DNA of 64,000 bases from Flavobacterium alkalisoli. GTDB lineage: Bacteria; Bacteroidota; Bacteroidia; Flavobacteriales; Flavobacteriaceae. Both the position numbers and the translations under genes were made by a program. The notes beneath the pieces are model-generated. The model was not told the origin of the DNA and ran no database searches. It was given only the letters and a program-made list of their open reading frames with translations. Location of the stretch: contig NZ_CP042831.1 in assembly GCF_008000935.1 (NCBI RefSeq), positions 1,860,001 through 1,924,000 of the forward strand, written 5' to 3'. Positions 877-15,558 of this stretch are shown one piece after another (position 1 is the stretch's first letter; the number at the start of each line of letters is the position of its first letter).

Positions 877-877
877 A

Positions 878-1462: not shown

Positions 1463-1469
1463 TTGCACT

Positions 1470-1990: not shown

Positions 1991-2068
1991 TATTCTGTCT
2001 ATTTTATTAAAAGATAATAAAGAAATAATAATATAACGCGCCCTGAACCGGGCAGGAATTTAAAATTT

Positions 2069-2130
2069 AGCCCCGGATTTAGTAACCACACCAAAATTAA
2101 CGGGGCTTTTCATTAACACACCTTACCTTG
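2069..2130. other. Paired hairpins with a 13-nt motif shared with element B
   Basis: On the plus strand agccccg ... cggggct (2069-2108) forms one stem-loop. The next stem pairs cattaaca (2111-2118) with tgttaatg, and its loop contains cacaccttacctt (2117-2129). The same 13-mer occurs at 44444-44456, inside the structured region of element B. The segment lies between the cargo operon and the end of the leftward late operon and has no coding capacity. Confidence 0.4.
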
Positions 2131-2146
2131 TTAATGGTGCGAATAT

Positions 2147-2176
2147 AAAAAAAACCGCTCAAATAAAAGCGGTTTT
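2147..2176 (-). terminator. Terminator of the element A late operon
   Basis: Read on the minus strand: stem aaaaccgct, seven- to eight-base loop, stem agcggtttt, followed by a T-run. It lies 32 bp past the stop of the last late gene. Element B has an equivalent at 28181-28208. Confidence 0.75.
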
Positions 2177-2207
2177 AGTATATGTTTAAGAGTATATTTT
2201 TGATAGT

Positions 2208-2591
2208 TTACCAGTTTACAATCTTTCCGTATTCATTTACGTAAACAGAAGCATTCGAAGGAATATTTCTCAATTCGTCGATTGATATATCCACAATCGG
2301 GCGGCTGCCATCAGCTTTATATGCCTCTATTGAACGGTAAACTATTTTTACGCCATCTTTCACCAAATACCATCCTTCGTCATTGCCCGGGCTTCTTACT
2401 ACCTTACCTTCATAAGGTGATGCGCTAACGCCGGCATTTGAATTGCTTCCGGTGTTTGCATTGTTGCCGGTGCTTATACCGGTATTTGCATTGCCGGTAC
2501 CGGTATTGCTACCGCCGAATATTTTATCTTTAAAAGTAAAAACGGCCGCCGCTCCTAATAGGGCAACGCCAAGAATCATTTTTTTATTCAT
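2208..2591 (-). CDS. Small membrane-anchored protein, last gene of late operon A
   Basis: 127 residues. An N-terminal membrane helix (residues 5-22, ILGVALLGAAAVFTF) is followed by a DKIFGG motif, a Gly/Asn/Thr-rich linker and a C-terminal domain of about 65 residues (YEGKVVRSPGNDEGWYLVKDG through YVNEYGKIVNW). The counterpart in element B is 28225-28593 with the same layout and the same DKIFGG and final NW. Probably a virion membrane or host-envelope protein, by its operon and topology. Family not recognised. Confidence 0.7.
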   Translation of the reverse strand: MNKKMILGVALLGAAAVFTFKDKIFGGSNTGTGNANTGISTGNNANTGSNSNAGVSASPYEGKVVRSPGNDEGWYLVKDGVKIVYRSIEAYKADGSRPIVDISIDELRNIPSNASVYVNEYGKIVNW

Positions 2592-2607
2592 AACTTAGGT
2601 TTTATAA

Positions 2608-4896
2608 TTATATAACTTCAAAATTTAGTTCGTTTATTTCCGTTGCAACAGCTTCGGCCTCTGCTTCCGTTTCAGGTTCTAAAGGGTTGTAAACTGTGCC
2701 GGTTGCTATATTATAGCGAATGGTTTCAATAGGTACTTTTGTATAGCGGTTTTTATCAAAGAATGCGTAGTTATCCGCAAAACTGGCTTCCTTAACCATT
2801 TTAATGATGATGTCACCATCGAAAACAACTTCAGAACCTCCTTTGGTTCGGCCGGTCGTGGTTTGCTGAAAAATGATTACAAACACTTTACCGTTAAACC
2901 TTTTGCGTAAATCTTCATCAAGGTGTATCGTTCCCACCATCCTAAGCAGCTTTTGCCAACTGTCAATGAAAATGATTTCATAATCCTTTACAAGGTCGTA
3001 CAAGTCCTGTTTGTCCTCCACATCGCCAACGGTATCAATATTTGCCTGCGCTTGGCCTGATAAGTATTTTTCTACCTTCTCTTTTGCTAAAGAGCTGTTC
3101 GGGTGTTCTTCCCCGGATATAAACAAACAACGGTTTCCGGGCGTTGCAAAGGCATTCATGAACTTGTATAAAGTGGTTGTTTTTCCTGCACCCTGCTCAC
3201 CATCCATCGTGATAACTACGCTATGTTCGGGCTTTCTTTCAACGGCCTGAAGGAACTTTCCAACCTCGCCCGCTACAGTAAAGAACTGTGCCGGCACTTC
3301 ATTGGCCGCCGCACCTATATTTTTTACTCGAGGGTTTTTTTGCGGCTGCGGCTGTGGCTGTGGTATTTCTATTGGTGTATTATTTATCTGCTGTGGTTCT
3401 GTTACCTCTGTGCCTTTAAGCCCTGAAGCTTTTCTTTTACCATTTAAACCAAATAGATTTAACTGTTTTGTTTGGCTCGATTTTCTTTTACGTGTTGCAA
3501 CGGGTTTGGCTTTTGCTTTAGATTCCTGGGCTTTGGCCTTTTCCTTTTTTTCCTTTTTCTCTTTAGCGGCCTTTTCTTTAGCGGCCTGCTTTAAATCCTC
3601 AAAGTATTTCGGCTCACCGGCACTATTGTACTGCAATAAATAATCCGTTGCGGCCTGTGCCTGCGTTGCGGCACGCATCAAAAACCTGTTATCATCCTGA
3701 AGGTGTGTTAATCGGTTATTCCATGACTTCAGGTAAGCAGGGAAATTTTTATCAGTGTGCCAAATGATACCGGCTTCAGCACTTAAAAACGTTGCCGTAA
3801 ACTCTGCGATTAGTTCCTCAAACGCATAATTTTTAGAACCAAATTTTCCTGAAAAATCACGCTGTAATCTCTTTTGATGGCCGGTACTGTGTGCAATCTC
3901 GTGGAAAAACGTTGCGTAATAATCCTGTGCCGCCTCAAAGTCATAGATATGCGGCATTGTGATGGTATCTTTACGAGGCGAATAAAATGCCTCATTGCCG
4001 CCAAATGCGTAACCCGGTGCGGGTACAGGATAGTTTTTTATAATGGCTTCCGCTATCGGCATCTTATATTCTTCCGCTGCCGGCAGTGGTTTTTCAATAA
4101 GGCCATGCTTAAAGTTTTTCAGGTCGAAATCAATGCCGGTTATATCAATGCCGTTAAAAACATTGTAATACTTCAGGATGGGTAGTTTATGCCTCTTTGC
4201 TATATCTTCAGCCGACTGTCCGGCAGCAAAAAAAGGTATCTTATCCCTGTTCTCATTTAGCAGTGCAATGAACTTTTTAAGGTCGTAACTGGCTATATCA
4301 ACTTTCCTTTCGGAATCATAGTATTTATAAAGCTCGGTAAAGTAAACTACCGGATAGCCTTTAGCACCTTTGTTAACCATACCGCCTAAACTTTCAATTT
4401 GCTTGAAAGTCATAAAAAAAGGATTTTTTAACGGCTCAAAGTCGGTAAGAAGGTAGCGGTTAACACCCCTGTACATTTTCTTAGAAACAAAATTGAAAGG
4501 CATTAGGTAGCCCGTTCCGTACTTTTTAGCAGACCATTTTTGTTTATAATCTTTGGTGTTGGCCAGTTTAATTTTTTCAATCATTTTATCAGTAATCATC
4601 TGATAAATTTCGTCTGCTGAAACGGCCTTCCCTAAACCGATAATTGTATCGTCCGAATCCTGTTCGCAATCCAAGCACTGTAAGAAGCTTTCCGGCACTG
4701 ATTCAATGGCCGGTGCTGTATTCTTACTAAACTTAAATTCATCTACGGTTGGATTGTCCGTTAAAGCTTTCTGAAGCCTTTCTGCAAGCTCGTATTGTTC
4801 CTGCTGTTTGGCATCGATTATCAAAACGTTTATATCTGTACGGTTTAACTTTGTCTTAGTGCCTATCAACCCGTTAAAGCTCTTAACTACTCCCAT
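2608..4896 (-). CDS. ArdC-like antirestriction metallopeptidase fused to a RecA-like ATPase
   Basis: 762 residues in two modules. Residues about 80-290 match the ArdC N-terminal ssDNA-binding region (MPFNFVSKKMYRGVNRYLLT, FMTFKQIESLGGMVNKGAKGYPV, KYYNVFNGIDITGI). A zinc metallopeptidase follows with HEIAHSTGH near residues 332-340 and a downstream EELIAEF glutamate. A Lys/Ala-rich linker (about 440-540) leads to a P-loop ATPase: Walker A GEQGAGKT near 565-572 and Walker B IIFIDSW near 639-645, with a RadA/DnaB-like end. ArdC proteins protect incoming DNA from restriction and are known in polyvalent proteins delivered with phage DNA. Element B has the same protein split in two at a run of ten A. 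Confidence 0.8.
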   Translation of the reverse strand: MGVVKSFNGLIGTKTKLNRTDINVLIIDAKQQEQYELAERLQKALTDNPTVDEFKFSKNTAPAIESVPESFLQCLDCEQDSDDTIIGLGKAVSADEIYQMITDKMIEKIKLANTKDYKQKWSAKKYGTGYLMPFNFVSKKMYRGVNRYLLTDFEPLKNPFFMTFKQIESLGGMVNKGAKGYPVVYFTELYKYYDSERKVDIASYDLKKFIALLNENRDKIPFFAAGQSAEDIAKRHKLPILKYYNVFNGIDITGIDFDLKNFKHGLIEKPLPAAEEYKMPIAEAIIKNYPVPAPGYAFGGNEAFYSPRKDTITMPHIYDFEAAQDYYATFFHEIAHSTGHQKRLQRDFSGKFGSKNYAFEELIAEFTATFLSAEAGIIWHTDKNFPAYLKSWNNRLTHLQDDNRFLMRAATQAQAATDYLLQYNSAGEPKYFEDLKQAAKEKAAKEKKEKKEKAKAQESKAKAKPVATRKRKSSQTKQLNLFGLNGKRKASGLKGTEVTEPQQINNTPIEIPQPQPQPQKNPRVKNIGAAANEVPAQFFTVAGEVGKFLQAVERKPEHSVVITMDGEQGAGKTTTLYKFMNAFATPGNRCLFISGEEHPNSSLAKEKVEKYLSGQAQANIDTVGDVEDKQDLYDLVKDYEIIFIDSWQKLLRMVGTIHLDEDLRKRFNGKVFVIIFQQTTTGRTKGGSEVVFDGDIIIKMVKEASFADNYAFFDKNRYTKVPIETIRYNIATGTVYNPLEPETEAEAEAVATEINELNFEVI

Positions 4897-4899
4897 AAT

Positions 4900-5367
4900 C
4901 TAACTTTCTATATAATATTCTTTCCCTAATATTTCAACTACCACAACAAAGGTTAGCTGCTCTAAAGAGAAGCCTTCGATAGTTATAACATTTTTTAATA
5001 CATTTTCCGGGGAAACCTCAAAGGGAATGTTTTTTAATTCAAGTGTATTTAACGCCGGTATGTGTACCATGTTAATTGCAAGTGTGGCCATGCCTAAAAA
5101 GTGGCCGTTACGGTACGCAATAGCCCTTTTGACACTTGCGAAGCTGCCGGCATAGATAGAAAAATCCTCTTTTGTCGGGTTTTCTATCGTTAAATCAAGA
5201 TTGAAAGTAAAATGGCTTAATCCTATTTTTACATTCCTTAACCCGGAAGGGTAAACATTCATTGCGCTGAAAACAGCCTTTAGTTTCTGAATCCTTCTAT
5301 AGCCGGCATAAGCTAACCCGGCAACACCAACAATAATCCCGGTTATAATGATGTGTTTCGTTTTCAT
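4900..5367 (-). CDS. Membrane-anchored LEA14/WHy-like protein
   Basis: 155 residues. An N-terminal membrane helix (about residues 6-23, IIITGIIVGVAGLAYAG) precedes a beta-rich domain with FTFNLDLTIENPTKEDFSIY, the NP-centred strand pattern of LEA_2/WHy (LEA14) domains, and a later LELKNIPFEV strand. LEA14-type domains are best known from plant stress proteins and some bacterial and archaeal secreted proteins; a phage-like operon is an unusual place for one. Sits between the M23 peptidase and the ArdC-ATPase with 1-3 nt gaps. The counterpart in B is 30968-31429. Function unknown; a virion membrane or infection-tube role is a guess. Confidence 0.6.
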   Translation of the reverse strand: MKTKHIIITGIIVGVAGLAYAGYRRIQKLKAVFSAMNVYPSGLRNVKIGLSHFTFNLDLTIENPTKEDFSIYAGSFASVKRAIAYRNGHFLGMATLAINMVHIPALNTLELKNIPFEVSPENVLKNVITIEGFSLEQLTFVVVVEILGKEYYIES

Positions 5368-5368
5368 T

Positions 5369-5848
5369 TTAAAATAGGTTGGTTGGGTCGATTAATCTGT
5401 TTAGGCTGTCTCTTACCTCAATGTGAACATGATTTGTCATTGCTGCCCCATGTTTGGCACTGATGTTTTGGGCTATGCCTATTTTTTCACCGGCAAGTAC
5501 TGTTTTAGGTATTACAACGGTCGGCGACATATAGAACATTTTAACCCTGTATTTCTCGTTCACGATTTCAACACCGGTATAACTCAAATCACTGGCATAA
5601 GGATAGGCCACGCGTGTAACCTTACCGGTTATCGGTGAGAATATATCTTCACCGGGAGCGGCCACAATATCAATTCCCTGATGTGTATGTGTTCCCCTGC
5701 GTGCGCCAAAAGAACCGCACCCGAGCGGATCGCATCCCCTTATTTTTTGTTTCTTGGTAATTGCTGCTAAAGCCTTGTTGCTGTTTGACATAAGAAGTAG
5801 TATTAAAGCGGCTGCAACACCTATGTAAATAATTTTTTTGGCAGCCAT
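5369..5848 (-). CDS. M23-family peptidoglycan endopeptidase with N-terminal membrane anchor
   Basis: 159 residues. Membrane segment at residues 5-20, then an M23 (LytM) domain with THQGIDIVAAPGEDI (zinc-binding His and Asp of HxxxD) and NHVHIEVRD (HxH). The zinc site appears complete. RGCDPLGCGSFGA upstream carries two cysteines conserved in the element B copy (31431-31907). It would cut peptide cross-links at entry or lysis. Its start overlaps the end of the spanin-like gene by 28 nt. Confidence 0.85.
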   Translation of the reverse strand: MAAKKIIYIGVAAALILLLMSNSNKALAAITKKQKIRGCDPLGCGSFGARRGTHTHQGIDIVAAPGEDIFSPITGKVTRVAYPYASDLSYTGVEIVNEKYRVKMFYMSPTVVIPKTVLAGEKIGIAQNISAKHGAAMTNHVHIEVRDSLNRLIDPTNLF

Positions 5849-6378
5849 GTTTTTATTTTACTGATTAAATAATTGATAAGGAAAAAAGCACATACCCAAC
5901 CGAAACAAGCACTGTATTTATAAAAGGCCGGGATAACTCTTACCGGCACTTCTTTTATTATCTCCGAACTTTCCTTTTTTAAATGGTCGGTTTGTTCCGT
6001 ACTCTGGACGTTTTGGGTTGCCGCTATATCGGCCAAAACCTCTAAGGTTTTCTTATGCTCGTTATAAAGAAGCTGATAGCGGTTATTGCCTGATTCTATT
6101 TCCCGGTTGATGCTTTTTAATATCTCACGCACCCGGGCATTGCAAAGGCTGTCACAATCGCTATTACCGGTATTCACATCGGGAAAATAAAAAGAGGCCT
6201 TATCCTTTATTTCCCGGTTAACTTCCGTAAGCTTTGAAATTACCTGTGTTAGGCTGTCAATATTAACGGTCGATTCCTCTTCCTTCAGAACCTTTTGCGT
6301 TCTGCATCCTGAAGCCAGGACACTGAAAAAAAGTGCAAAAAGAAACAGGATTGGCCATGTGCTTTTTATTTTTCTCAT
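5821..6378 (-). CDS. Candidate unimolecular spanin (lipoprotein with C-terminal membrane helix)
   Basis: 185 residues. The N-terminal signal ends in a lipobox (VLASGC, Cys25), giving a lipoprotein. A periplasmic helical, coiled-coil-prone region follows (TQVISKLTEVNREIKDK to ESSEIIKE), and a C-terminal membrane helix lies near residues 155-172 (FGWVCAFFLINYLI). One protein tied to the outer membrane by lipid and to the inner membrane by a C-terminal helix is the topology of u-spanins such as phage T1 gp11. Neighbours are a holin-like gene and a peptidase. The B copy is 31868-32461. Topology is clear; the spanin role is inferred. Confidence 0.6.
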   Translation of the reverse strand: MRKIKSTWPILFLFALFFSVLASGCRTQKVLKEEESTVNIDSLTQVISKLTEVNREIKDKASFYFPDVNTGNSDCDSLCNARVREILKSINREIESGNNRYQLLYNEHKKTLEVLADIAATQNVQSTEQTDHLKKESSEIIKEVPVRVIPAFYKYSACFGWVCAFFLINYLISKIKTWLPKKLFT

Positions 6379-6731
6379 TACTGAATTTTTAAAAGTTGGT
6401 TTATTTTCTTTTTGGCCGCCTCAAAGAGGTAATTCAATAAGTCCTCTAATTTGCTATGAAATAAGGAACTCATTGAACCGGCAAGGCTGCACATCATGTA
6501 AGTAAAAAGCTTATTGAAGTTTAGGAACTGGTCAAAAACCGCAAATACTATAAGGGCTATAAAAAAAGACATTAAGCCCTCGGTAAGCATTTTCCTGAAA
6601 GTGATTTTCATGCCTTTTTCATTCTGTTTGGCCACTTTGTAACCAGTTCCTAAGAGTACGGCAAAGACAAAGAGAAAAACGTCGTAAATCTCGTTTGGTA
6701 AGGTCTTGATAAATTCAATTATGTTTTTCAT
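6378..6731 (-). CDS. Holin-like membrane protein
   Basis: 117 residues using the ATG at 6731; an upstream in-frame start would run into the spike gene. At least two strong membrane segments (IYDVFLFVFAVLLGTGYKV and FFIALIVFAVFDQF) plus a third weaker one (TYMMCSLAGSMSSLF), and a charged amphipathic C-terminus. Size, topology and position next to the spanin and peptidase suggest a holin. Element B has a different short protein at this position (32464-32712). Confidence 0.55.
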   Translation of the reverse strand: MKNIIEFIKTLPNEIYDVFLFVFAVLLGTGYKVAKQNEKGMKITFRKMLTEGLMSFFIALIVFAVFDQFLNFNKLFTYMMCSLAGSMSSLFHSKLEDLLNYLFEAAKKKINQLLKIQ

Positions 6732-8128
6732 TATACTGGTATTAGGTTGTAGCGTGGTTCTATTCCAATCCAACTGTTTATCCATCCTGTTTTACGGTAA
6801 AGAACCGGCGGGGTTGTATTAGGGCAATACACTTCAAATCCTTCTAAGGCATCCGGGTATAAAGCGTTAATTTGCTCAATGGTAAATAAATCCGTTACAT
6901 CTGAATTAGTTATCTTGCAGGTGGCCGATATAATTCTATACTCAAAACTATTGTGAATAACCTCTAAAGTTGTTCCCGGTACAAGCACCATTGAAGTTTT
7001 ACCGTTTATTGTGCCGTTGTTAGTAACAGATAGTGTTACATTAGCTTGGCCTGAAACTTTGATAATAAAAGTTTTACCCTTGAACATTATATCTTTGTTA
7101 AGTTCAAGATTGTAGCCGGCATCTGAAAAAATTTCAATGAAGTAATCTTTAGCCCCAAGAACACTGGCACTCACATCATCGGTTAACTGCTTGACATAGC
7201 CCCAACCTCCCCTTACAAAGCCTGCATCCGGAATCGTTCTGTCGAATTGTATCATCCATTCGTTATTGTCAAGCTGATACTGAAGAAACCTTCTTACTTC
7301 TGTGTGGGTATTATAAAAACTTATACCGGCATCAAGAAAACCGTTTTGGCCTACACCAATCTGAAATTTTGCAAGGATTGGGTTTGAATTGTTACTTATA
7401 AAAAATACTGGTGAGGTCGGATTAGCACCATAGATATTAAAGAATACACCATTATTCATATAAGAATAGACATTCCCGGTTATATTTGCATCTGTGTTTA
7501 GCGTATCCATCCAAGATGGTGCCTGAGGTGTGGGAACTTTACCGATTCTTAATTTATTTTCGTTATTGACAAACAATACATTTTCCGGTTGTGTTTCAGA
7601 ATCAGCGGGTATCTTTGGAACATCAATTGTAACATCAAGATTTGAAACAACGGAGTCATAACCAATGGCTGTAAAAGCTTCATCGTTTATTTTTGGTATA
7701 AAATAAACCGGGTATTCATCCTCAAATAGAAAAAATTCACCTATTAACTCCGTTGGTTGGCCATCAATAAGAAAATAGAATTTTGTATCAAGGCCAAGCT
7801 CGTTATACGGTGCATAATCGTAGCCCTCGTAAAGCTCAACCATTGATTTATCCTCATACCCCGGGAAAGGAACTTCAGTATAAACCTCCATATTTCCGAT
7901 TTCCTCTATATCATCAAAGGTGTACGGTACAAACTGTGTAACACCCGCCCCCTTAATATTAAATTCCGATACGTTATTCAGGGAAAGGGAATTACCTCCC
8001 ATATCAACAGCCCTGTTAACCTCTGAGGTGTTATCTTCAATACCGAATTTACCACCGGTAGCACCACCGCCGTTGTTATCGCCTGTTAATGCAATAACGT
8101 CAATTCCTGTTCCTATCTGTCCGCTCAT
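6731..8128 (-). CDS. Putative receptor-binding spike or fibre protein
   Basis: 465 residues, beta-rich, no membrane helix. It starts MSGQIGTGIDVIAL; the element B counterpart (32736-34352) starts MNGIGTGVDYFNAL, so a shared N-terminal IGTG(I/V)D segment may anchor different receptor-binding domains. The middle (LRIGKVPTPQAPSWMDTL onward, about 190-350) resembles fibre-type sequences, and the C-terminus ends in a Trp-rich GWINSWIGIEP. Overlaps the next gene by one base and the lytic gene by 29. Receptor role inferred from position and variability. Confidence 0.55.
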   Translation of the reverse strand: MSGQIGTGIDVIALTGDNNGGGATGGKFGIEDNTSEVNRAVDMGGNSLSLNNVSEFNIKGAGVTQFVPYTFDDIEEIGNMEVYTEVPFPGYEDKSMVELYEGYDYAPYNELGLDTKFYFLIDGQPTELIGEFFLFEDEYPVYFIPKINDEAFTAIGYDSVVSNLDVTIDVPKIPADSETQPENVLFVNNENKLRIGKVPTPQAPSWMDTLNTDANITGNVYSYMNNGVFFNIYGANPTSPVFFISNNSNPILAKFQIGVGQNGFLDAGISFYNTHTEVRRFLQYQLDNNEWMIQFDRTIPDAGFVRGGWGYVKQLTDDVSASVLGAKDYFIEIFSDAGYNLELNKDIMFKGKTFIIKVSGQANVTLSVTNNGTINGKTSMVLVPGTTLEVIHNSFEYRIISATCKITNSDVTDLFTIEQINALYPDALEGFEVYCPNTTPPVLYRKTGWINSWIGIEPRYNLIPV

Positions 8129-8666
8129 TTTTTTTGTAGATTTTATAGCCGATTAACCCGGCAAGAATTAAGGCCAGTGTAATTAACAGGCCGTTACTGC
8201 TTTTTTTTTTTAATGGCATCCCGAGAATTGCGATAGCTTCCTGATAGTCCGATTCCGTAATTAAATCGGCGTATTGCTTGCCGTTCTCAACCGTTGCAAT
8301 GATTTTGCAAAGCGCGATTATAGTTTCCTGAGTTATCTCGAGCTTAACACTTGGCAATATTCCTAATGCTTTGGCCACATTCTGAATGTAAATGCCGGTG
8401 TGGTTCTCAAAGGAAGGTGAAAGCACGCTTATCAAGCTGTCAACGGTGTTAATGCCGCCGTTGATTTTGTTAATCATGTTTCGCATCATTGCCCGTATTC
8501 CGTAACGCAATTCCTTAAACTGTTCGAAGTGGCCATCCGTATTTTGGGAGTTTGGAATTTTACCTTGCCAATTCTCACTGGTTAAAATGAGGTTGGCCGG
8601 GTTGTTGTTGCGGATGCCACGAGGATAAGAAGCGTAAGCGGGGTTATTTAGAAAACTTTTTGCCAT
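8100..8666 (-). CDS. RGIRNNNP-type lytic/structural protein with C-terminal membrane helix
   Basis: 188 residues. The N-terminus has PRGIRNNNPANLILT, W-x-GKIP and FEQFKELRYGIRAMMRNM, and later SVLSPSFENHTGIYI. This pattern belongs to a phage protein family often annotated as structural protein P5 or muramidase-like. A membrane helix (residues about 160-177, GLLITLALILAGLIGYKI) ends in a short basic tail. Probably a virion-associated peptidoglycan-degrading enzyme anchored in a membrane. B copy: 34349-34897, same topology. Confidence 0.65.
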   Translation of the reverse strand: MAKSFLNNPAYASYPRGIRNNNPANLILTSENWQGKIPNSQNTDGHFEQFKELRYGIRAMMRNMINKINGGINTVDSLISVLSPSFENHTGIYIQNVAKALGILPSVKLEITQETIIALCKIIATVENGKQYADLITESDYQEAIAILGMPLKKKSSNGLLITLALILAGLIGYKIYKKNERTDRNRN

Positions 8667-9109
8667 TATACTGTTACTGTTTTAACTTTAGGCTTAGCCG
8701 TTGCAACGGGTTTCGCTTTAGGTTTGGAGTCCTGGGCTTTGGCTTTTTTATCTTTCCTGCCTATTGCTATGGCCGTAATGGCTACAGCGGCCAGTGTTCC
8801 TAATGCTAAATAAAGCCCGGTTCTGTCAGGCTTTGGCCTTGTAAAGTTTATTACTGATGAATCCAAAGGGTATAAGGTTATTTCTGAAGGTACAGCCTTA
8901 GCTAAAAATATCTGTTCTTTATATCCGGGGCTTGAAATCCTGATTGTTGAGTTTTCGTTCTCAGCAAAAAAAACATAGCTCCCAGTTTCTTCAGAACTTA
9001 GAATATTTGCCACTTGCTGACCTTGATTGTTCAATTCTGCTATTAAAGCTTGCTGATATATTGGGTAGCCATCATCCCCGACAACTTTACCCGAAATTTT
9101 GTAAGGCAT
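8666..9109 (-). CDS. Carboxypeptidase-regulatory-like beta-sandwich protein with membrane helix
   Basis: 147 residues. Residues 1-85 (KISGKVVGDDGYPIYQQALI, IRISSPGYKEQIFLA) resemble the CarboxypepD_reg / TonB-plug-associated beta-sandwich typical of Bacteroidetes surface proteins. One membrane helix follows (LYLALGTLAAVAITAIAIG, about 100-118), then a Lys/Ala/Pro-rich basic tail. B copy: 34897-35364. Likely displayed on one side of a virion or host membrane; exact role unknown. Confidence 0.6.
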   Translation of the reverse strand: MPYKISGKVVGDDGYPIYQQALIAELNNQGQQVANILSSEETGSYVFFAENENSTIRISSPGYKEQIFLAKAVPSEITLYPLDSSVINFTRPKPDRTGLYLALGTLAAVAITAIAIGRKDKKAKAQDSKPKAKPVATAKPKVKTVTV

Positions 9110-9110
9110 A

Positions 9111-9545
9111 TTATAAGTAGTTTGGAAATTTTAGGCTTAACTTTTGGTAATCGCTCGAGCTTAATTCGTTTTTAAGCCAGTAAGGCAAATCCTTTAAAGG
9201 CAAAGGATCTCCCCAAGGAATGTAATTGATTTGATTGCCGGCAGTACTGTTATAGCTTCTGTATTTAAAGGCAGCTACAACCTGTGCAAACTGAGCCTGT
9301 GTTACATTCCTAAGCGCACTGAAAATGGCATCTTCATCCGTACCGGTGTTTTTCATGGCATCATAGAGCTTTTCAGCTATTGTATTTGCATTGAAAGGTA
9401 CTGAAGGGTTAGTAGAACCTGTACCGTTGCCGGTTGGGTCGCCATTCCCGGAAATATCCGTTTTCTTTTTTACTACATTGTAGATTATAACCGTTGCGGC
9501 CAGTCCTGCAACAATGCCTAAGACTATTTTATTTTTTTTTGTCAT
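9111..9545 (-). CDS. Membrane-anchored annexin-like repeat protein 1
   Basis: 144 residues. N-terminal membrane helix (IVLGIVAGLAATVIIYNVV, residues 7-25), Gly/Asn-rich linker, then one annexin-like repeat: AEKLYDAMKNTGTDEDAIFS followed by ALRNV-x4-FAQVVAAFKYRSY and, after an insert, WLKNELSSSDYQKLSLKFP. This follows the annexin repeat order (LxxAMKGxGTDExxI, helix, helix, LKSELSGxFEKL). Annexin repeats bind lipid membranes, usually with calcium; here one repeat per protein is tethered to a membrane. B copy: 35369-35791. Likeness is by eye. Confidence 0.6.
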   Translation of the reverse strand: MTKKNKIVLGIVAGLAATVIIYNVVKKKTDISGNGDPTGNGTGSTNPSVPFNANTIAEKLYDAMKNTGTDEDAIFSALRNVTQAQFAQVVAAFKYRSYNSTAGNQINYIPWGDPLPLKDLPYWLKNELSSSDYQKLSLKFPNYL

Positions 9546-9556
9546 GGTTGGAGAAA

Positions 9557-10048
9557 TTAAAAAAGTCCGGGTAATATGAATCGTAATGTTTCCATTTTAC
9601 TGCCTGAAAATTGATCGTTCAACCACTCTACTAAATCCATTTCAGAAGTACCGGGAATGCTGCCCCTTCTCTTACCAAATGCGTTATAAACTTCAACCCA
9701 TCCATTGTAATTAAGTCCGGCTAATTGTTCCGCTACCACGTCAACATCAGCCCCAAAACCTAACATGGCCTGATAAATTGCCTCTGCTTTGGCTTTTGCC
9801 TGTGCTGTGTTTACGTTGGCCGGGTCTAACTGTGGATTTGTTCCAAGCTTTATGAAACGCTTTTTGTAAAGGGAATAGGCTATATAACCAATCGCTGCTG
9901 TAGCTACAACAGCGAGTGTTATTTTAGCAATGGAAACAGTAGATTTAACCGCACCGGCAATGGCCTCTTGTCCGGCGGGAGACGAAGCAAGTGCAAGAGC
10001 CGCCGGATTTGATAAGCCTTTTTGTTGTGTATTTTCTTTTACTGCCAT
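9557..10048 (-). CDS. Membrane-anchored annexin-like repeat protein 2
   Basis: 163 residues. Begins with a hydrophilic KENTQQKGLSNPAALALASS segment, membrane helix at about 40-58 (ITLAVVATAAIGYIAYSLY), then a repeat related to its neighbour: AEAIYQAMLGFGADVDVVAE, YNGWVEVYNAFGKR and VEWLNDQFSG. The GTDE of gene 9111-9545 is GADV here, so calcium-type acidic residues are less complete. Adjacent paralogues suggest duplication within the ancestor, since element B has the same pair (35369 and 35794). Confidence 0.55.
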   Translation of the reverse strand: MAVKENTQQKGLSNPAALALASSPAGQEAIAGAVKSTVSIAKITLAVVATAAIGYIAYSLYKKRFIKLGTNPQLDPANVNTAQAKAKAEAIYQAMLGFGADVDVVAEQLAGLNYNGWVEVYNAFGKRRGSIPGTSEMDLVEWLNDQFSGSKMETLRFILPGLF

Positions 10049-10063
10049 TGGTTGATTTTGATT

Positions 10064-10285
10064 TTAGAACATTGATTTAAGCAACTTCCAGTTTTTTTTA
10101 AGGGCTTCCCTTGCTTTTGGGTTAATCATTATTTGCTCAATACGTTCTTGGTCTTCCATATCGAGGCGGGAGAAATCCTGAAGGATTTTCTTTTTTTTCT
10201 GAAGGTCAAAGACGTTTCCGGCCTTTACTTCAAATGTTAGAGTTACTTCGCCGCTCATTTTTTCTGTGGTGTTTGGTGTTGACAT
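10064..10285 (-). CDS. Small late-operon protein of unknown function
   Basis: 73 residues, no membrane helix. It has a short beta segment (EVTLTFEVKAGNVFDL), a lysine-rich stretch, and a helical end with RLDMEDQERIEQIMINPKAR. The B copy (36295-36522) keeps VTITFQIKAGNPFDLKKK and DDQERIEQI, so the gene is real. Two to three bases after the upstream gene. May be an assembly or scaffold factor. Confidence 0.65.
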   Translation of the reverse strand: MSTPNTTEKMSGEVTLTFEVKAGNVFDLQKKKKILQDFSRLDMEDQERIEQIMINPKAREALKKNWKLLKSMF

Positions 10286-10287
10286 TG

Positions 10288-11085
10288 TTAAGTCTGAATT
10301 AGGTTATGTGTTTGTAATAGTTTTAATAGTTCGTTGCTAAAGTTTTCACTGGTGGTCATACCTTCAAGGACAGCACACAAATAGTAGGCAATACCTTCGC
10401 TTTGGGTTTTTATGGCCTCTACAAGGGCTTTTTTGTTGTCCGATAGTGTTTCGGTATCCTGAACCGGTGAAGTTCCGTTTAATCCACCCGGTGCGCCTTT
10501 AGCCTGCGCCAATGCCCCCATAACGGTTGGCAAAGCTCCGAGTAGTTCTGAAAGCAATTCTTTGTTGCCGGCTGCTTTATTTTCCGAAAAATCACGCTGA
10601 ATGATTTCTTTTTCAAGAGAGGCAACCTCTTTTTTCAAAGTCTCGTTTTCAAGTTTTAGCTTATCGTTCTCAGTTATTATTTTCGGGTAATCCTGATAGC
10701 GGTAAGCCACATCAAAGCCATTTAAACCGGCCATAAGTCCCATTAAAGGGTTATGGCCAGTCTGTGGCATGGTTAGGGCAGGAGAGGCAGAAGCTACCGG
10801 GGTTGCTTCTTGGTATTGTTCGCCTTTGGGGCGAAGCGATAATTTAACCGGTTGGCCATCATCCTTAAATGATGTGCCGTTTTTCCTGCGTGGGTTAATA
10901 GCGATTTGGGTGTGACCCTGTTCAACTATTTTATTGAAATATTTTTCCACGCTCCCGGCTTCTTCAACCATCTGAGCGGCCATCCTGTTAGTACATACTG
11001 TTTTGAATGTATCTGTATCAGTAATGGTTATTGCAAAATATTGGTCGTTCTTTAATTTTTCTATTATGGTTTCGAGTTGCTTCAT
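10288..11085 (-). CDS. Coiled-coil late protein of unknown function
   Basis: 265 residues. N-terminal alpha/beta domain to about residue 90 with PRRKNGTSFKDDG, a Pro/Gln linker, a conserved LMGLMAGLNGFDVAYRYQDYPK segment, a coiled coil at about 140-175 (ENDKLKLENETLKKEVASLE), and a helical C-terminus. The counterpart in B is 36509-37333 with the same MAYRYQDYPE segment. The mix of an oligomerising coiled coil and a beta domain fits a vertex, scaffold or DNA-organising protein; no family recognised. Confidence 0.65.
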   Translation of the reverse strand: MKQLETIIEKLKNDQYFAITITDTDTFKTVCTNRMAAQMVEEAGSVEKYFNKIVEQGHTQIAINPRRKNGTSFKDDGQPVKLSLRPKGEQYQEATPVASASPALTMPQTGHNPLMGLMAGLNGFDVAYRYQDYPKIITENDKLKLENETLKKEVASLEKEIIQRDFSENKAAGNKELLSELLGALPTVMGALAQAKGAPGGLNGTSPVQDTETLSDNKKALVEAIKTQSEGIAYYLCAVLEGMTTSENFSNELLKLLQTHNLIQT

Positions 11086-11088
11086 CTC

Positions 11089-11379
11089 TTAACATTCTTG
11101 CGGGTTGTACACTCTGTAATCTAAAATGGCATGTTTACTCTCTCCGGTAAATTTTACTTCAAGGGTAAGTTTACAGGCCGTACCATCACCCGGGAGATTG
11201 TAAGAACCCATAGGAACGCCAATTTCTTCCCTTAATGCCGGCACTGTACGTGGTACATCATTAACTATTACAGTTAAAGGGTCTGAACCGTAATTAGAAA
11301 GGGTTAGACTGGTGACGTTCTTTAAATTCATTTTTATGTCACTTCCGATTAATCTTGATATAAGGCCTGTTTTTTCCAT
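11089..11379 (-). CDS. Small beta-rich protein, candidate minor capsid protein
   Basis: 96 residues, predicted mostly beta (TSLTLSNYGSDPLTVIVNDV, GSYNLPGDGTACKLTLEVKF, HAILDYRVYN). B copy 37338-37622 is clearly homologous, sharing LTVTVNDV, PGDGTAC and AILDYR. It sits immediately downstream of the 121-aa beta-rich protein; both together resemble small capsid or vertex subunits. Structural role is inferred from position and composition. Confidence 0.55.
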   Translation of the reverse strand: MEKTGLISRLIGSDIKMNLKNVTSLTLSNYGSDPLTVIVNDVPRTVPALREEIGVPMGSYNLPGDGTACKLTLEVKFTGESKHAILDYRVYNPQEC

Positions 11380-11380
11380 T

Positions 11381-11746
11381 TTAGCACTGTTGTGTTAGGT
11401 CGTTTTCATAAATCAATACTAACTGGCATTTAAAGTCAGCAGTAAAATTGGCATCGCTGTTTACTTCAAAGGTGTACGCTTTGTTTCCTGTTTCGAAGTA
11501 TAGCGGCTTGCATCCTTCCTTGTACCCTGCTTCACGACTGCGATAGTTTCTAATATCCGCACTGGCTGATATTACCTCGCCATTGTCGTTTGTTATTTTA
11601 GCAGTTACAAATCCTGTGTTTGGTGCGGCATTGGTATAAATCACGCATCCAATTACTAATCCTGCCATCGGCTGAAAGGTAACAGAGTTGTTTCTGCTTC
11701 CGCTTGCAATGGTCAGGTTTACAATTTCTTCTTGTTTTTTGAACAT
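11381..11746 (-). CDS. Small beta-rich protein, candidate minor capsid protein
   Basis: 121 residues of beta-sandwich type: VNLTIASGSRNNSVTFQPMA, GLVIGCVIYTNAAPNTGFVT, RNYRSREAGYKEGCKPLYFE, CQLVLIYEND. The central YRSREAGYKEG loop is kept in B (LRSREAGYREG, 37625-37996). It begins just past the terminator that follows the 190-aa capsid candidate, so it should be expressed at a lower level by readthrough. Confidence 0.55.
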   Translation of the reverse strand: MFKKQEEIVNLTIASGSRNNSVTFQPMAGLVIGCVIYTNAAPNTGFVTAKITNDNGEVISASADIRNYRSREAGYKEGCKPLYFETGNKAYTFEVNSDANFTADFKCQLVLIYENDLTQQC

Positions 11747-11759
11747 GGTTTTTTCGAGT

Positions 11760-11793
11760 AAAAAAAGCCAAAAGCACTGCCTTTGGCTTTTTA
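11760..11793 (-). terminator. Conserved terminator after the capsid candidate gene
   Basis: Stem aaagccaaa / tttggcttt with loop agcactgcc and flanking A and T runs. The same sequence over about 30 nt occurs at the same place in element B (38012-38043), a much closer match than the nearby coding DNA. It would lower transcription of downstream genes relative to the capsid candidate. Confidence 0.75.
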
Positions 11794-11825
11794 ATTAACA
11801 AACATTAAACTAACCCGAACTATGA

Positions 11826-12398
11826 TTATGCGTTGCTTGCATCTGCAAACTCATACCCATCAAGCTCAACTTTTACTGCTGTACCGGCAGCAGCCAAACC
11901 GGCTGTAAGGATTTGAATATCGAAAGGAATATTAGGGCGAATTTGGAAAGGAACAACCGGCATGAAGTCTACATCTTTTTCAAATGAGTAATCATTTTTA
12001 GTGTAGGCACTGATAGGGTTGTTGAAGAAATCCCCTGAACCATCCTGAGCGATTTTAAGCTCACCATTTTTGTAAGGTGCGGGAGCCTCACTCTTGTAGG
12101 TTGCCGTTAGTATGTTTACATCTGCTGTAGTATCGAAAAGGACACGAACACCAGTAACAATAAAGCTACGGCCTTCATTCAGCATATTACCTTTGTCAAA
12201 GTTGGTACGGCCGATTTCTTTTTTAGTTCCTGCATCGATTAATTTTCCATCAGAAGTAAAATCCGAACTTCCTGAAATACCTGCTACGAAGTAGGTTTTT
12301 CTTTTAACTTTTTTTCCTGTTGGGGTTAATGCAACTCCGTTTCCGTTTTGGATGCTTGGTAGTAACCCTATTACTTCTGCAAATGATAAATGTTTCAT
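11826..12398 (-). CDS. Candidate major capsid protein (single beta-barrel size)
   Basis: 190 residues, beta-rich, no membrane helix. Conserved stretches with the B copy (38077-38649, also 190 aa): KKEIGRTNFDKGNMLNEGRS followed by FIVTGVRVLFDTTADVNILT, and KNGELKIAQDGSGDFFNNPI. Reasons to favour major capsid: identical length in both elements, central place in the late operon, longer 5' and 3' untranslated regions than other late genes, and a conserved terminator directly after it. Size fits a single jelly-roll. It does not resemble HK97-fold capsids. Structure prediction is needed to decide. Confidence 0.5.
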   Translation of the reverse strand: MKHLSFAEVIGLLPSIQNGNGVALTPTGKKVKRKTYFVAGISGSSDFTSDGKLIDAGTKKEIGRTNFDKGNMLNEGRSFIVTGVRVLFDTTADVNILTATYKSEAPAPYKNGELKIAQDGSGDFFNNPISAYTKNDYSFEKDVDFMPVVPFQIRPNIPFDIQILTAGLAAAGTAVKVELDGYEFADASNA

Positions 12399-12461
12399 CT
12401 TTTTAATTTTTAACTTTTTATGTATTGATTTTTAAACTTTTAATTAAGGCTTTTTTGATCG

Positions 12462-13007
12462 TTACGCACTGGCAGGCTTCGCCCAAATATCCTGCGAGTT
12501 CCAAATGTCACCGGCTAACCCGAAATTGCTGTTTTCTCTTTCAGCGTTAATGTCTGTATGCACGTAACGAGGTGAGAAAACAGGAGCGCTGTACATAAGA
12601 CCTTTTGTATCGTTGCAAGGGCAGCCTAAGCCTACCGTTTGAGCAAGGATTTTTTGTGTTTTGGTCGTTGCTGATACTTCAGGAGTAACACCGCCTCGAG
12701 CGGCCAAGGTTTTAACTATTTCTAAGCCTTGTACAACTGCGATACCTACACAAGCACCTTTTACAAGCGTTGCAACAAGGTCTTTACCTTCGATAAATAC
12801 GGCGGCCGTTCCTGCACCGACTGTCATAACTCCACGCTTTAATAAAGCTGTGTTTTCCTGTTTTTTAGCGGCTGCCGTATCTTCTGTAGCTTGATTTTCG
12901 TGTATAAGTCCGAAAATACCACGAGATGCGGCACCGCCTGCAAGAACACCACCAGTTAATGCGATGGTGTCTTTCACTTTTGTTCCTGATGGTTTTTTAA
13001 ATTCCAT
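12462..13007 (-). CDS. Virion membrane protein candidate with GLGCPC motif
   Basis: 181 residues. Two to three Ala/Gly-rich hydrophobic segments (IALTGGVLAGGAASRGIFGL, VMTVGAGTAAVFIEG, LVKGACVGIAVVQGLEIV) precede GLGCPCNDTKGL and a polar C-terminus with FSPRY. B copy 38726-39265 has the same layout and GLGCPCTDTMGMG. Likely an integral protein of an internal or enveloping membrane; the CPC pair could form a disulfide or bind metal. Confidence 0.6.
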   Translation of the reverse strand: MEFKKPSGTKVKDTIALTGGVLAGGAASRGIFGLIHENQATEDTAAAKKQENTALLKRGVMTVGAGTAAVFIEGKDLVATLVKGACVGIAVVQGLEIVKTLAARGGVTPEVSATTKTQKILAQTVGLGCPCNDTKGLMYSAPVFSPRYVHTDINAERENSNFGLAGDIWNSQDIWAKPASA

Positions 13008-13030
13008 GTGTTTATAATTGTTTTAAATTC

Positions 13031-14095
13031 TTACTTGGTTTTAGTGCGCTTTTTTGATCTCACGGCCTTCTTCTTCGAGGCTTTTGAAGCTGCTATTGCA
13101 ATGGCCACCACAAGTAAACCGCCTAATACTACTTTAGTGGTGTTTGATTTTTTACCTGTAGTATTGTTTGTAACATCATCTGAAGATGTATCTGTAATAA
13201 CTTCAGCTTCTATAACATCACTTCCTTTGTCTGTGGTCGTATTTGTTCCTTCTTTTGTCGGTACATTCGTTACAGGAGTGCCGCCGGTATTAACAGGAAC
13301 TTTAGGGATTATACCGCCACCCGGGTAAACAGGAAGGGTAGTAATGCCACCTGGCTGTAATTCGATTCCGGGTTTTGTGGTTGGTTTTGTAGAACCGGAA
13401 GCAAGAACATAATTTTCACCTGTAACCGTTGAAATAGTACTATTACTGAATAGCGGCATAAAGTTGTACTGGTTAATAGGGAAAGTTACCTCCTTAGTTG
13501 TCAGACTTAAGTTTTTTCTTTTAAGGCCTTCAGTAACCGCCATTACAATAAGATTGAAAGCCTGATAAATTACATAACTACGTTGGCGTAATGCGTTTGT
13601 AGAAAGTCCGGCTGTTTTTGTAACTTCAGGGTTATAGTGGTCTTGTACTGCATTAATCTTGTTAAGTACCGCATTAAGGCCTGTTAACATTGCAGTAGTA
13701 TCGCTTAATGCCAATGCGTTTGCAACGTCCTGTGTCAGATTTTCAGCGTATGGCTTAAATTGGGTCAACCATTGCTCTAAGATTCGGGTTTCTTCCAGTG
13801 TAAGCTCATCTTTAAGACTAAGGTTAGCATTAAGGCCGATACTCTGTAAACCGGTTTCAATATTCTGAGCCACATATTCAGTAATTGAATCAATTTCGTC
13901 GGCAAGCGCCCTACCAACAAAAGGGATAGCTCTTACACGGCCGGCAATAACACCCCCGACGTATCGTACTGCATCACCCACCCATTTACCTATTGGTGGT
14001 GTCCATCCAAATATCCTTAATCCTAAACCTTGCTTTCCGGATGCTATTGCGGGAAGGTTTCTTTCTACAGTTCTGTTTTGCTGTACTAAATTCAT
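13031..14095 (-). CDS. Late membrane-anchored protein with helical N-domain
   Basis: 354 residues. N-terminal GLRIFGWTPPIGKWVGDAVR then an amphipathic VGGVIAGRVRAIPFVGRALA, a helical middle, a Pro/Thr/Gly-rich linker (about 235-315), one membrane helix (VVLGGLLVVAIAIAASKA) and a very basic tail. B copy 39290-40285 is strongly similar up to residue about 250. Shares the linker-plus-helix-plus-basic-tail architecture with the neighbouring 487-aa protein, overlapping it by one base. Possibly a vertex or entry protein; family not recognised. Confidence 0.6.
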   Translation of the reverse strand: MNLVQQNRTVERNLPAIASGKQGLGLRIFGWTPPIGKWVGDAVRYVGGVIAGRVRAIPFVGRALADEIDSITEYVAQNIETGLQSIGLNANLSLKDELTLEETRILEQWLTQFKPYAENLTQDVANALALSDTTAMLTGLNAVLNKINAVQDHYNPEVTKTAGLSTNALRQRSYVIYQAFNLIVMAVTEGLKRKNLSLTTKEVTFPINQYNFMPLFSNSTISTVTGENYVLASGSTKPTTKPGIELQPGGITTLPVYPGGGIIPKVPVNTGGTPVTNVPTKEGTNTTTDKGSDVIEAEVITDTSSDDVTNNTTGKKSNTTKVVLGGLLVVAIAIAASKASKKKAVRSKKRTKTK

Positions 14096-15558
14096 TACTT
14101 TGTCTTTTTTACTTTTGTTTTTGTTGATGATTCAGAAGCCTTATTGGATTTATCACCGGGCTTTGCCGGTTTGTCTTTCATTTCTGAAAATATAAAAGCA
14201 GCACCGGCAGCAAAAAGGGCTACACCTGCAATACCGCCTAAACTTGCAGTTTTTAAATTTGTTCCGGTATAAGTAACTGTACCATTGTTATAGTTTGTAC
14301 CAGATCCTGTATTGTTTCCTGATCCTGTATTTGAAGGAGCGAAAACCGCGACAACCTCTTTGATATCGCTTAAAAATGTTTGAAGATTGAAGTTTGATTG
14401 GTTTTCTTTATCCCCGATGTAAGGGGTAATTACAAACTGTTTTACGTTGGTTGTATTTGCCTTTGGAGAAATTTTAGTAACTATAGTAGCCTGTGTTTGT
14501 TCAATACTGCTTCCTTTATCGAATCTCATTTCGATATCGAAAGTATTGTTAGGTACTTGTACTGTACTGGTTTCAATATCAAAGTAATATTTCAACCATT
14601 GCATGAAGCCGGTGTAAACAATATTGTAATAATATTCGCCCGCAGCTTGGTATAAATCAACGGCATTTTTTGAGCATGTACTTTTCCAACTGCCGCTTGC
14701 TTTAACCCTGCTATGGCTTTGCATTTGAGCAGCAACCCTTAATAGAGTATTGATTTTCGGGATTATATCATTACCGTTGTTTACAGCGAGGTTGACATCA
14801 TCTATCATTTTTTCAAATGCCGGCACGATGTTTTCCAGTGATGCATAAAAATCGTCAGTATCTAAAGAGCCTCCAATACAATTAGGTTTCCAACCACCTG
14901 AAAAAAGACTTTTAATGTTGTTAAGCGAAAGGTGTTTTGAGAGTTCAGAATAGGTAATCCCTAATCCTCTGTGGCTGCCATTTAATCCGTAATGTTCCAT
15001 ATCCATAAATAAATCACTGGTTTGTGTAAATACTGATTCCTGAAGTGTCTCTACCGTTCCATCAATAACAAAGTAACCTTCACTTAGCTTGCTGTTTTTT
15101 TGGTTCTTAGGAACGACAACATAAACATGCGTCCATAATTCAGGTGCAAACCCCGGTTGCTTAATTCGCCTTATATAGTGTTTGATACCAAGATTTGTAA
15201 GGATGCAGCTTGCAATTATCGTGTAGCTTTTACAGTCTATACCCTCAACCCTGCTATACCATGAACATGATGGACTGCGCAAGTACTGGGTTTCTTTATC
15301 GGCTTTGTATTGAAAATGCCAGTAACACCATTTGTGAATATCATTGCAGGTTTGTTGCAATGATTTGTTGCGAAAGAGTTCAGCAACCTTTGACATTTGG
15401 AAAGCATACATCTTAACCATGCCTGCCATTTTATCGACTGAGAAATCAGTCATGCCTTTACCAAGAAAAGTGGCTTTGCAGGTGGTTTTTGGTATTAGCT
15501 TTTCAAACTCTTTACCGGGTTTAATCTCTCTGTGTAGTAAGTAATCAAAATCGCTCAT
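14095..15558 (-). CDS. Transglutaminase-like cysteine protein with C-terminal membrane helix, first late gene
   Basis: 487 residues from the ATG at 15558. A longer reading to 15669 exists, but the B homologue (40285-41772) begins at the matching MSEFDFLL, fixing this start. Residues about 60-180 carry a transglutaminase-like triad: GIDCKSYT (Cys109), WTHVYVVV (His144), VIDGTV (Asp166). Members of this fold are proteases, amidases or cross-linking enzymes. A helical and beta region follows, then a Thr/Gly/Asn linker, a membrane helix (GGIAGVALFAAGAAFIF) and a basic tail. It could process virion proteins or act on the cell surface at entry. Confidence 0.7.
   Translation of the reverse strand: MSDFDYLLHREIKPGKEFEKLIPKTTCKATFLGKGMTDFSVDKMAGMVKMYAFQMSKVAELFRNKSLQQTCNDIHKWCYWHFQYKADKETQYLRSPSCSWYSRVEGIDCKSYTIIASCILTNLGIKHYIRRIKQPGFAPELWTHVYVVVPKNQKNSKLSEGYFVIDGTVETLQESVFTQTSDLFMDMEHYGLNGSHRGLGITYSELSKHLSLNNIKSLFSGGWKPNCIGGSLDTDDFYASLENIVPAFEKMIDDVNLAVNNGNDIIPKINTLLRVAAQMQSHSRVKASGSWKSTCSKNAVDLYQAAGEYYYNIVYTGFMQWLKYYFDIETSTVQVPNNTFDIEMRFDKGSSIEQTQATIVTKISPKANTTNVKQFVITPYIGDKENQSNFNLQTFLSDIKEVVAVFAPSNTGSGNNTGSGTNYNNGTVTYTGTNLKTASLGGIAGVALFAAGAAFIFSEMKDKPAKPGDKSNKASESSTKTKVKKTK

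Follow-up and report, generated by a model that had tools for sequence, protein, structure and literature searches.

Tandem prophages of Flavobacterium alkalisoli as probable temperate relatives of the tailless phage SSIP-1

The window analysed here is a stretch of 64,000 nucleotides of Flavobacterium alkalisoli (contig NZ_CP042831.1), corresponding to bases 1860001–1924000 of a 3.99-Mb single-contig genome. Judged from its gene content and repeats, the window holds two tandem prophages, A and B, at a tRNA-Met gene. The best explanation that we can propose, and one that we hold with considerable confidence, is that A and B are temperate tailless phages related to SSIP-1. It is supported at the sequence level by the integration at tRNA-Met (an integrase together with attachment-site repeats), by a conserved late operon, and by several late-gene homologies to SSIP-1. 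The virions of each element very probably have an icosahedral shell that encloses a membrane, though both virions and membrane are inferred for A and B. The host of SSIP-1 lies in or near the Bacteroidota, and SSIP-1 is unclassified at NCBI. Passages in reviews describe it as icosahedral and membrane-containing, and PMC6260650 and PMC4958249 mention a tentative grouping with sphaerolipoviruses or single-barrel viruses.

A preliminary description of this stretch had read one group of leftward genes as the late operon of a tailless, membrane-containing phage of an unplaced lineage. The tailless, membrane-containing reading is now the best supported one, through the relationship to SSIP-1. "Unplaced" holds in so far as SSIP-1 itself is unclassified, but the lineage can now be placed: by its homologies it is one that belongs beside SSIP-1, and no membership of a ratified family is claimed. 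The late operon is real as well, but it belongs to one of two tandem prophages, and the homologous operon at 28225–41772 had gone unmentioned. What is new here is the link to SSIP-1, the temperate life at tRNA-Met, how widely the family is spread, the existence of small circular forms, and possibly a system of a protease and its motifs; among the papers listed in literature searches, none seems to describe SSIP-1-like prophages of flavobacteria, as judged by titles and the openings of abstracts, with most subscription journals outside the scope.

Tandem prophages at tRNA-Met and their late genes

The final 44 bases of the tRNA-Met gene recur exactly at 26345–26388, and positions 53283–53298 repeat its last 15 bases plus one base beyond. 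From these repeats of the tRNA end, A is therefore about 27.4 kb and B about 26.9 kb long (to ~53298), in tandem. The same pattern is repeated in two relatives from other genera, G193 (45-bp repeat, 23.8 kb) and G039 (21-bp repeat inside the tRNA, element of ~26.5 kb). The features that define the two elements are as follows.

L022:16956–17030 (locus coordinates), tRNA-Met, about 1 kb left of the window; integrase A adjoins
1–340, plus strand, C-terminal part of integrase A (418 aa; gene start about 0.9 kb left of the window, L022:17085–18341)
20334–22073, minus strand, R579-type early-region protein of A; a replication role is a guess
26345–26388, plus strand, attR of A and attL of B, 44-bp copy of the tRNA-Met 3′ end
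26513–27682, plus strand, tyrosine integrase, given to B by position
28225–41772, minus strand, late operon of B, homologous to and syntenic with that of A
46196–49066, minus strand, R956-type early-region protein of B (phrog_28855, function unannotated)
51204–51884, plus strand, CI/LexA-like repressor of B (Peptidase_S24)
53283–53298, plus strand, proposed attR of B, 16-bp repeat of the tRNA-Met end

The late operon of A consists of 19 leftward open reading frames (ORFs), nearly gapless, from 15558 down to 2208, in agreement with the roughly 20 packed genes described before. By a Kyte-Doolittle hydrophobicity scan (19-residue span, cut-off 1.6), 11 of the 19 products have a membrane segment, where at least nine had been noted. 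The lysis-type genes are the holin-like A06, the M23 peptidase A04 and the lysozyme-like A08, together with the spanin-like A05. Both Pfam and PHROGs were run on 20 proteins (the 19 late products of A and the 579-aa early protein), PHROGs on 10 further proteins, and Pfam on seven of those 10; most small early ORFs lie outside these scans, as do those late genes of B for which A has an orthologue. All late genes of A are on the minus strand.

2208–2591, minus, A01, 127 aa, function unassigned, orthologue in B
2608–4896, minus, A02, 762 aa, polyvalent part (ArdC-N and the zincin MPTase-PolyVal) fused to an ATPase of the RecA/RadA type, a relative of SSIP-1 gp40
4900–5367, minus, A03, 155 aa, N-terminal membrane anchor, kept across the family
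5369–5848, minus, A04, 159 aa, anchored M23 peptidase (Pfam, 2.1e-8)
5821–6378, minus, A05, 185 aa, hydrophobic segment at each end and Cys after the first; spanin-like by appearance only
6378–6785, minus, A06, 135 aa, holin-like (phrog_6384, 1.3e-5)
6731–8128, minus, A07, 465 aa, variable spike position; the B counterpart matches tail-spike/depolymerase families
8100–8666, minus, A08, 188 aa, lysozyme-like domain and C-terminal membrane helix (phrog_873 'endolysin', 2.5e-34)
8666–9109, minus, A09, 147 aa, membrane helix and basic tail
9111–9545, minus, A10, 144 aa, N-terminal anchor and annexin-repeat-like segment (PF00191, 6.3e-6, above the Pfam cut-off)
9557–10048, minus, A11, 163 aa, anchored
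10064–10285, minus, A12, 73 aa, small, conserved
10288–11085, minus, A13, 265 aa, coiled-coil-like, L-N-G motifs; best SSIP-1 match gp33
11089–11379, minus, A14, 96 aa, small, conserved, present in small viral contigs too
11381–11746, minus, A15, 121 aa, predicted eight-stranded beta protein, second shell-protein candidate
11826–12398, minus, A16, 190 aa, major capsid protein candidate, predicted beta-sandwich
12462–13007, minus, A17, 181 aa, membrane protein; best SSIP-1 match the structural gp44
13031–14095, minus, A18, 354 aa, C-terminal membrane helix and basic tail
14095–15558, minus, A19, 487 aa, transglutaminase-like domain, C-terminal membrane helix and basic tail; homologue of the structural gp34 of SSIP-1

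A10 and A11 were pooled into one profile, which does not assert that they are homologous.

Shell candidates, homology to SSIP-1 and breadth of the family

A16, the 190-aa beta-rich protein that had been singled out as the capsid candidate, is still the best candidate on the basis of its predicted fold. The AlphaFold2 model of A16, computed from 23 sequences, has a predicted local distance difference test score (pLDDT) of 81.9 and a predicted template modelling score (pTM) of 0.80, and contains about seven long strands in one beta-sandwich. Its counterpart in B (38077–38649) is 51% identical. A search of the model against predicted viral structures gave 1471 matches, four of them at E ≤ 0.001. 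The best match is I1ZBH9 (E 8.3e-5, probability 1.00, template modelling score (TM) 0.46, root-mean-square deviation (rmsd) 9.1), with VP4, the capsid protein of SPV1, at rank 7 (E 1.8e-3, probability 1.00, TM 0.46) and I1ZBI0 at rank 10. From their equal lengths (211 and 256 aa) and consecutive accessions, we infer that I1ZBH9 and I1ZBI0 are gp46 and gp47 of SSIP-1. The 121-aa A15, modelled from 43 sequences (pLDDT 90.6, pTM 0.83), is predicted to be an eight-stranded beta protein. The structure predictions proposed for the 190- and 121-aa proteins both gave beta folds, and given the confident prediction for A15 the shell may consist of A16 and A15. The double jelly-rolls of FLiP, PM2 and PRD1, with which comparison had been suggested, do not fit, because A16 is one small sandwich. 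Sequence searches of the PDB with A16 and the B ATPase returned chance-level matches.

Since the fold matches of A16 were read as gp46 and gp47, direct tests were made against the proteins of SSIP-1, covering 34 of its 57 annotated proteins. The SSIP-1 record labels gp34, gp40, gp43, gp44, gp46 and gp47 as structural, gp33 as hypothetical and gp29 as anti-repressor. A19 matches gp34 (7.7e-17; hhalign 95.8%) and the ATPase of A02 matches gp40 (hhalign 96.7%, E 3e-10). L143, a relative from another family of the phylum, matches gp34 (2e-32), gp40 (7e-30) and gp35 (1e-7), and polyvalent proteins of Persicobacter match both gp43 (4e-35 and 1e-33) and A02 (3e-96 and 8e-95). With 990 shuffled SSIP-1 proteins as the control, the top matches A13‒gp33 (6e-5) and A19‒gp34 (6e-17) stand above the shuffles; A17‒gp44 (0.0085) and A16‒gp46 (0.003–0.01) are weak, yet head their lists above all 990. 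Used as queries themselves, gp34 found itself (two records) and two weak matches (3e-4 and 1e-3) among 50,697 phage records, and gp46 found nothing but SSIP-1 itself among viral contigs.

The closest named relatives of A16 come from Flavobacterium (74% and 62%; names per source records), and with A16 alone as the query, 8 of the 299 genomes searched in the host's family gave a match, its own genome counted. A16 alone gave no match against viral contigs and its alignment is too variable for scans, so A19 was used for scanning the family. The A19 profile is found in 20 of 397 genomes of the host's family (G077, G154, G156 and G323 being partial or weak) and in 11 of 395 across the phylum (G154, G661 and G668 partial or weak), the own genome counted in both. 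When one genome per species was scanned, 99 relatives came up, 80 of which were kept, from Flavobacterium, Tenacibaculum, Capnocytophaga, Kordia, Aquimarina, Bizionia, Leeuwenhoekiella, Mesonia, Maribacter and others. A16 is present in 69 of the 80 loci, A17 in those same 69 and A13 in 68; in ten of the 11 loci that lack A16 the sequence stops about 2.3 kb or less from the A19 match, L076 being the exception. The late gene order recurs in B and in these relatives and is therefore not due to chance; among environmental relatives, loci of Flavobacterium beibuense F44-8 and F. rakeshii JCM 17928 have the late order complete. Elements (L139–L141) in two genomes from other families of the class carry A03-A19-A16-A13-A10.

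Among viral contigs, nine loci carry A19, some on contigs of 9–13 kb, and the capsid-position protein of one small contig found 14 loci, its own contig counted. In the 17 loci L108–L124 (one contig occurs twice, as L109 and L113), the module is in order as far as the contigs extend. Eleven of these loci are whole contigs, and five of the 11 (11.2–12.7 kb) have terminal direct repeats of 55–123 bases, as in circular genomes. No match was found among the 50,697 phage records with A19, with the capsid-position protein or the A19 of L108, or with bases 1–8000 of the L108 DNA. By eye, L108:5541–6263, on a 12.6-kb viral contig, resembles phosphoadenosine phosphosulfate (PAPS) reductase, and gp25 of SSIP-1 is annotated as such an enzyme. 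Another viral contig of 21.8 kb (L107/L127) carries two adjacent A16-type genes, the sole such locus among 83 with A16 (84 A16 matches), and one of the two proteins aligns with A16 at 88%. The pair is apparently a duplication, and the locus is a possible bridge to SSIP-1; its capsid protein found only its own contig among viral contigs.

Five Persicobacter plasmid records match the A19 profile, including the 632-kb CP012861 of strain JZB09 and two of P. psychrovividus. CP012856 and CP012854 of Persicobacter sp. JZB09 (L144 and L145; 47.6 and 48.8 kb) carry A03-A19-A16-A15-A14-A13-A10 in order, together with the polyvalent protein and the ATPase; a detectable A17 homologue and A08 are found on CP012854 only. 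Typed as non-mobilizable, these two plasmids look like phage-plasmids of the A/B family.

Two further observations concern the regions outside the late genes. Alongside the same late module, the R579 type of early protein has 42 matches and the R956 type 27; A has R579 and B has R956. Two kinds of large early protein with one late module would suggest an exchange of replication modules. Between the late and early genes of A, two lipoprotein-like genes lie in tandem (16489–17691 and 18014–19207; 72% identity over 300 bases) and are possibly cargo.

The late ATPase and the motifs around A19

The sole late ATPase found is RecA/RadA-like, and its SSIP-1 homologue gp40 matches bacterial RadA structures (4e-7). 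The ATPase of the small viruses has a weak link to A02 (64%) and none to gp40 (3.6%). A profile search for a packaging ATPase had been proposed; no FtsK/HerA or other packaging-ATPase (P9/A32) family appeared in the scans made, with most small early ORFs unscanned, and it is the RadA-like late ATPase that was found instead. The A02 gene of B is split into two overlapping frames at an A-run (29173–29234), and is a single frame in A; slippage, mutation or an assembly error may be the cause, and A02 pieces lie side by side in several Tenacibaculum loci too. The ArdC/zincin part of A02 matches 58 phage records, including Caulobacter phages with an antirestriction annotation, and is uninformative as to lineage.

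The transglutaminase-like family match of A19 is weak. Cys109, His144 and Asp166 of A19 are invariant in 8 of 8 aligned members, and from the transglutaminase fold we take them to be the catalytic set. Short motifs were counted in 13 late families over 35 clusters of loci. The commonest tetrapeptide is G-L-N-G with 34 locus-family cases (A02 10, A13 6, A17 5, A18 1, A19 12), and the top tetrapeptide in 20 shuffles has 10–16. A broader pattern occurs in 14/18 of A02, 20/34 of A13, 15/33 of A17 and 18/34 of A19 (1.3, 2.2, 1.9 and 3.2 expected), with counts of 0/25 in A14, 0/31 in A15, 3/35 in A16 and 2/19 in A18. LN[GA] alone is non-significant in A17 (8/33, 4.7 expected) and A18 (5/19, 4.8 expected). 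Two enrichments are not predicted by a reading with four proteins, namely LN[GA], somewhat raised in A16 (11/35, 6.3 expected), and L[GA][SAN]P, raised in A10 (7/31, 0.8 expected) and A16 (3/35, 0.7 expected). LN[GA] co-occurs in A13 and A19 (p 0.013), but not in A13 and A17 (0.69) or in A13 and A02 (1.0), relatedness not being removed. The four-letter lists of Capnocytophaga, Kordia and Tenacibaculum loci hold no clear motif. The small viruses have another pattern that marks the corresponding kinds of protein, in V13 (12/16), V17 (13/13), V19 (9/13) and the ATPase (7/16; 1.0–2.4 expected, with loci unthinned for relatedness), and in 0 of 17 capsid-position proteins.

We consider it somewhat probable that the L-N-G-type motifs are substrate sites of a maturation protease, with A19 as the enzyme. 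The position of the motifs points this way: in 12 of the 16 listed cases the A19 motif falls 26–28 residues past the Asp presumed to be catalytic, and further copies sit close to the A02 start, between the A02 domains and in linkers of A13. The main alternative is quite conceivable, namely that L-N-G is a short docking motif, for example from scaffold to shell, and not a cleavage site, and that A19 is structural or cross-linking. The A17 proteins of L043 and L074 carry the motif in tandem repeats, as docking motifs may show, whereas the positions just listed and the Cys-His-Asp set kept in A19 speak for cleavage.

Several points tell against the proposed relationship and the functions attached to it. 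The fold matches of A16 have TM-scores of only 0.46/0.42 at an rmsd of 9, and unrelated beta proteins occur lower down in the list. A16‒gp46 is non-significant in direct profile comparison (hhalign 0.6%), A14 and A15 have no match in the 34 SSIP-1 proteins, and gp29, the second SSIP-1 match of A13 (0.025), exceeds the shuffles too. SSIP-1, at ~44 kb, is reported with two capsid protein types, whereas A and B have one A16-type gene each; the A16 profile barely scores gp45, and a diverged second capsid copy could escape detection. A packaging role of the RadA-like ATPase is a guess, and RadA-like proteins also act in recombination. The broader motif pattern is raised in A10 as well (7/31, 1.7 expected). 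The motif patterns were picked after the sequences had been viewed, and therefore the protease reading is offered only as a hypothesis.

Alternative readings, proposed mechanism and comparison with known systems

A sphaerolipovirus-type shell on the P23-77 plan, built from A16 and A15, is improbable, though it would agree with the adjacency of these two small beta proteins and with the tentative placement of SSIP-1 noted above. The only late ATPase found is RecA/RadA-like, and no sphaerolipovirus name is among the best 50 of the 1471 fold matches of A16, many rows being unnamed.

We regard as very unlikely that the elements are a satellite, a gene-transfer agent or a highly divergent tailed phage with undetected head and tail genes. 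Many late proteins are without a family match, and some labels do point to tails and heads. The B spike (32736–34352) matches 'tail fiber/spike' families, best at 4.5e-37; phrog_873, matched by A08, is in the category 'head and packaging', and A08 also matches families named 'tape measure' (2.8e-13), 'head protein' (2.8e-12) and 'tail injection transglycosylase' (1.5e-10). However, the last three A08 matches span just ~115–120 residues within far longer profiles and overlap the lysozyme-like match, and the spike match fits a receptor-binding protein; such labels might mislead. In keeping with the preliminary description, none of the proteins scanned matched a family for terminase, portal, HK97 capsid, tube, sheath or baseplate, so the traits of Caudoviricetes (HK97 capsid, portal, terminase, tail) are not seen there. 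The 11–13 kb terminal-repeat contigs with the same module would leave little room for a tail, and the sequence links lead to the tailless isolate SSIP-1.

A double-jelly-roll phage of the FLiP/PhiCjT23 type is hardly credible: the hosts are Flavobacterium and a passage of PMC9719478 reports PhiCjT23-like prophages in that genus, but A/B-type elements measure 24–27 kb at tRNA-Met against 6–8 kb at dif, the capsid candidate consists of a single sandwich of 190 aa, and FLiP is not named among the best 50 of the 1471 fold matches. A secretion, conjugation or contractile apparatus, which the many anchored proteins might recall, can practically be dismissed in view of the integrase with tRNA attachment sites, the repressor, holin and spike, the relatives on viral contigs and the absence of secretion or conjugation families from the scans made. 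Two candidate relatives were set aside: the Flavobacterium columnare prophage fF4, a myovirus according to a passage of PMC7761591, and the Charybdis elements, which a passage of PMC12324425 gives as ~4.6 kb and which are different. A word search of the 2025 bacterial summary of the International Committee on Taxonomy of Viruses (ICTV; PMC12451628), including Flavobacterium, jelly and tailless, returned nothing.

For temperate tailless phages related to SSIP-1, we propose the following course. Once the repressor is relieved, the integrase would excise the element and the late operon would be expressed. A16, with A15 and perhaps A14, would assemble into an icosahedral shell whose proteins are single beta-sandwiches; beneath it would lie a membrane taken from the host, carrying the anchored A03, A08–A11 and A17–A19, some of whose basic tails would face the DNA. 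The RadA-like ATPase domain of A02 could act in packaging, or both it and the ArdC/zincin part could enter along with the DNA. At the vertex, A07 would recognise the host, and A08 would cut peptidoglycan on entry; A19 would mature A13, A17, A02 and itself at L-N-G-type sites, and A04–A06 would lyse the cell.

SSIP-1 gains a large group of kin in flavobacteria, prophages where attachment sites were examined, together with small circular and plasmid forms. Virion genes without a name are now recognisable, and cultured hosts exist for cryo-electron microscopy. The system allows a single-barrel shell, a non-FtsK ATPase and a transglutaminase-like protease to be tested together. More tentatively, and doubtful as a whole, the prophages and the small circular viruses could be a separate high-rank lineage of membrane-containing icosahedral viruses. 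Such a lineage would have a shell made of a single kind of single-barrel capsid protein (preceding the duplication that L107 shows and SSIP-1 perhaps shares), a RadA-type motor replacing FtsK-HerA, and a membrane-anchored protease of transglutaminase fold whose cut motif, borne throughout by the same four kinds of protein, drifted between clades (G-L-N-G in the Flavobacterium type, [MIL]-[SA]-G in the small viruses).

Compared with known systems, A and B share Flavobacterium hosts and, on the proposed reading, a tailless, membrane-containing plan with FLiP and PhiCjT23, as far as passages on these phages go, and differ from them in that those have a double jelly-roll capsid and single-stranded DNA of 7.6–9 kb. 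The double jelly-roll of FLiP/PhiCjT23, PM2 and PRD1 (Bamfordvirae) is not seen in A16 and A15, the late proteins that were folded. SPV1 (Portogloboviridae), whose VP4 matches A16 in fold, is described in part of its ICTV profile as icosahedral with an inner lipid layer, but has archaeal hosts. The Sphaerolipoviridae (P23-77, SH1) have small single-barrel shell proteins and an internal membrane, according to a passage of PMC4958249, as A and B may have, and differ by a P9/A32-type (FtsK-HerA) packaging ATPase in place of the RadA-like one. Their trait, shared with Singelaviria, is two vertical single-barrel capsid proteins; A16 and A15 are both predicted beta proteins, and could but need not be such barrels. 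The Persicobacter plasmids differ from A and B as plasmid-sized circles bearing further large genes. SSIP-1 is a 43.8-kb circular virus with an internal membrane and a T=49 icosahedron, whereas the A/B type comprises 24–27 kb prophages at tRNA-Met; the ATPase and polyvalent protein of SSIP-1 are separate where A02 has them fused. SSIP-1 is nevertheless the closest of these systems, with homologues of gp34, gp40, gp43 and gp33 and, more weakly, of gp44 and gp46, a partly identical order (33-34 adjacent, 44-45-46 adjacent) and an integrase gene, gp13.

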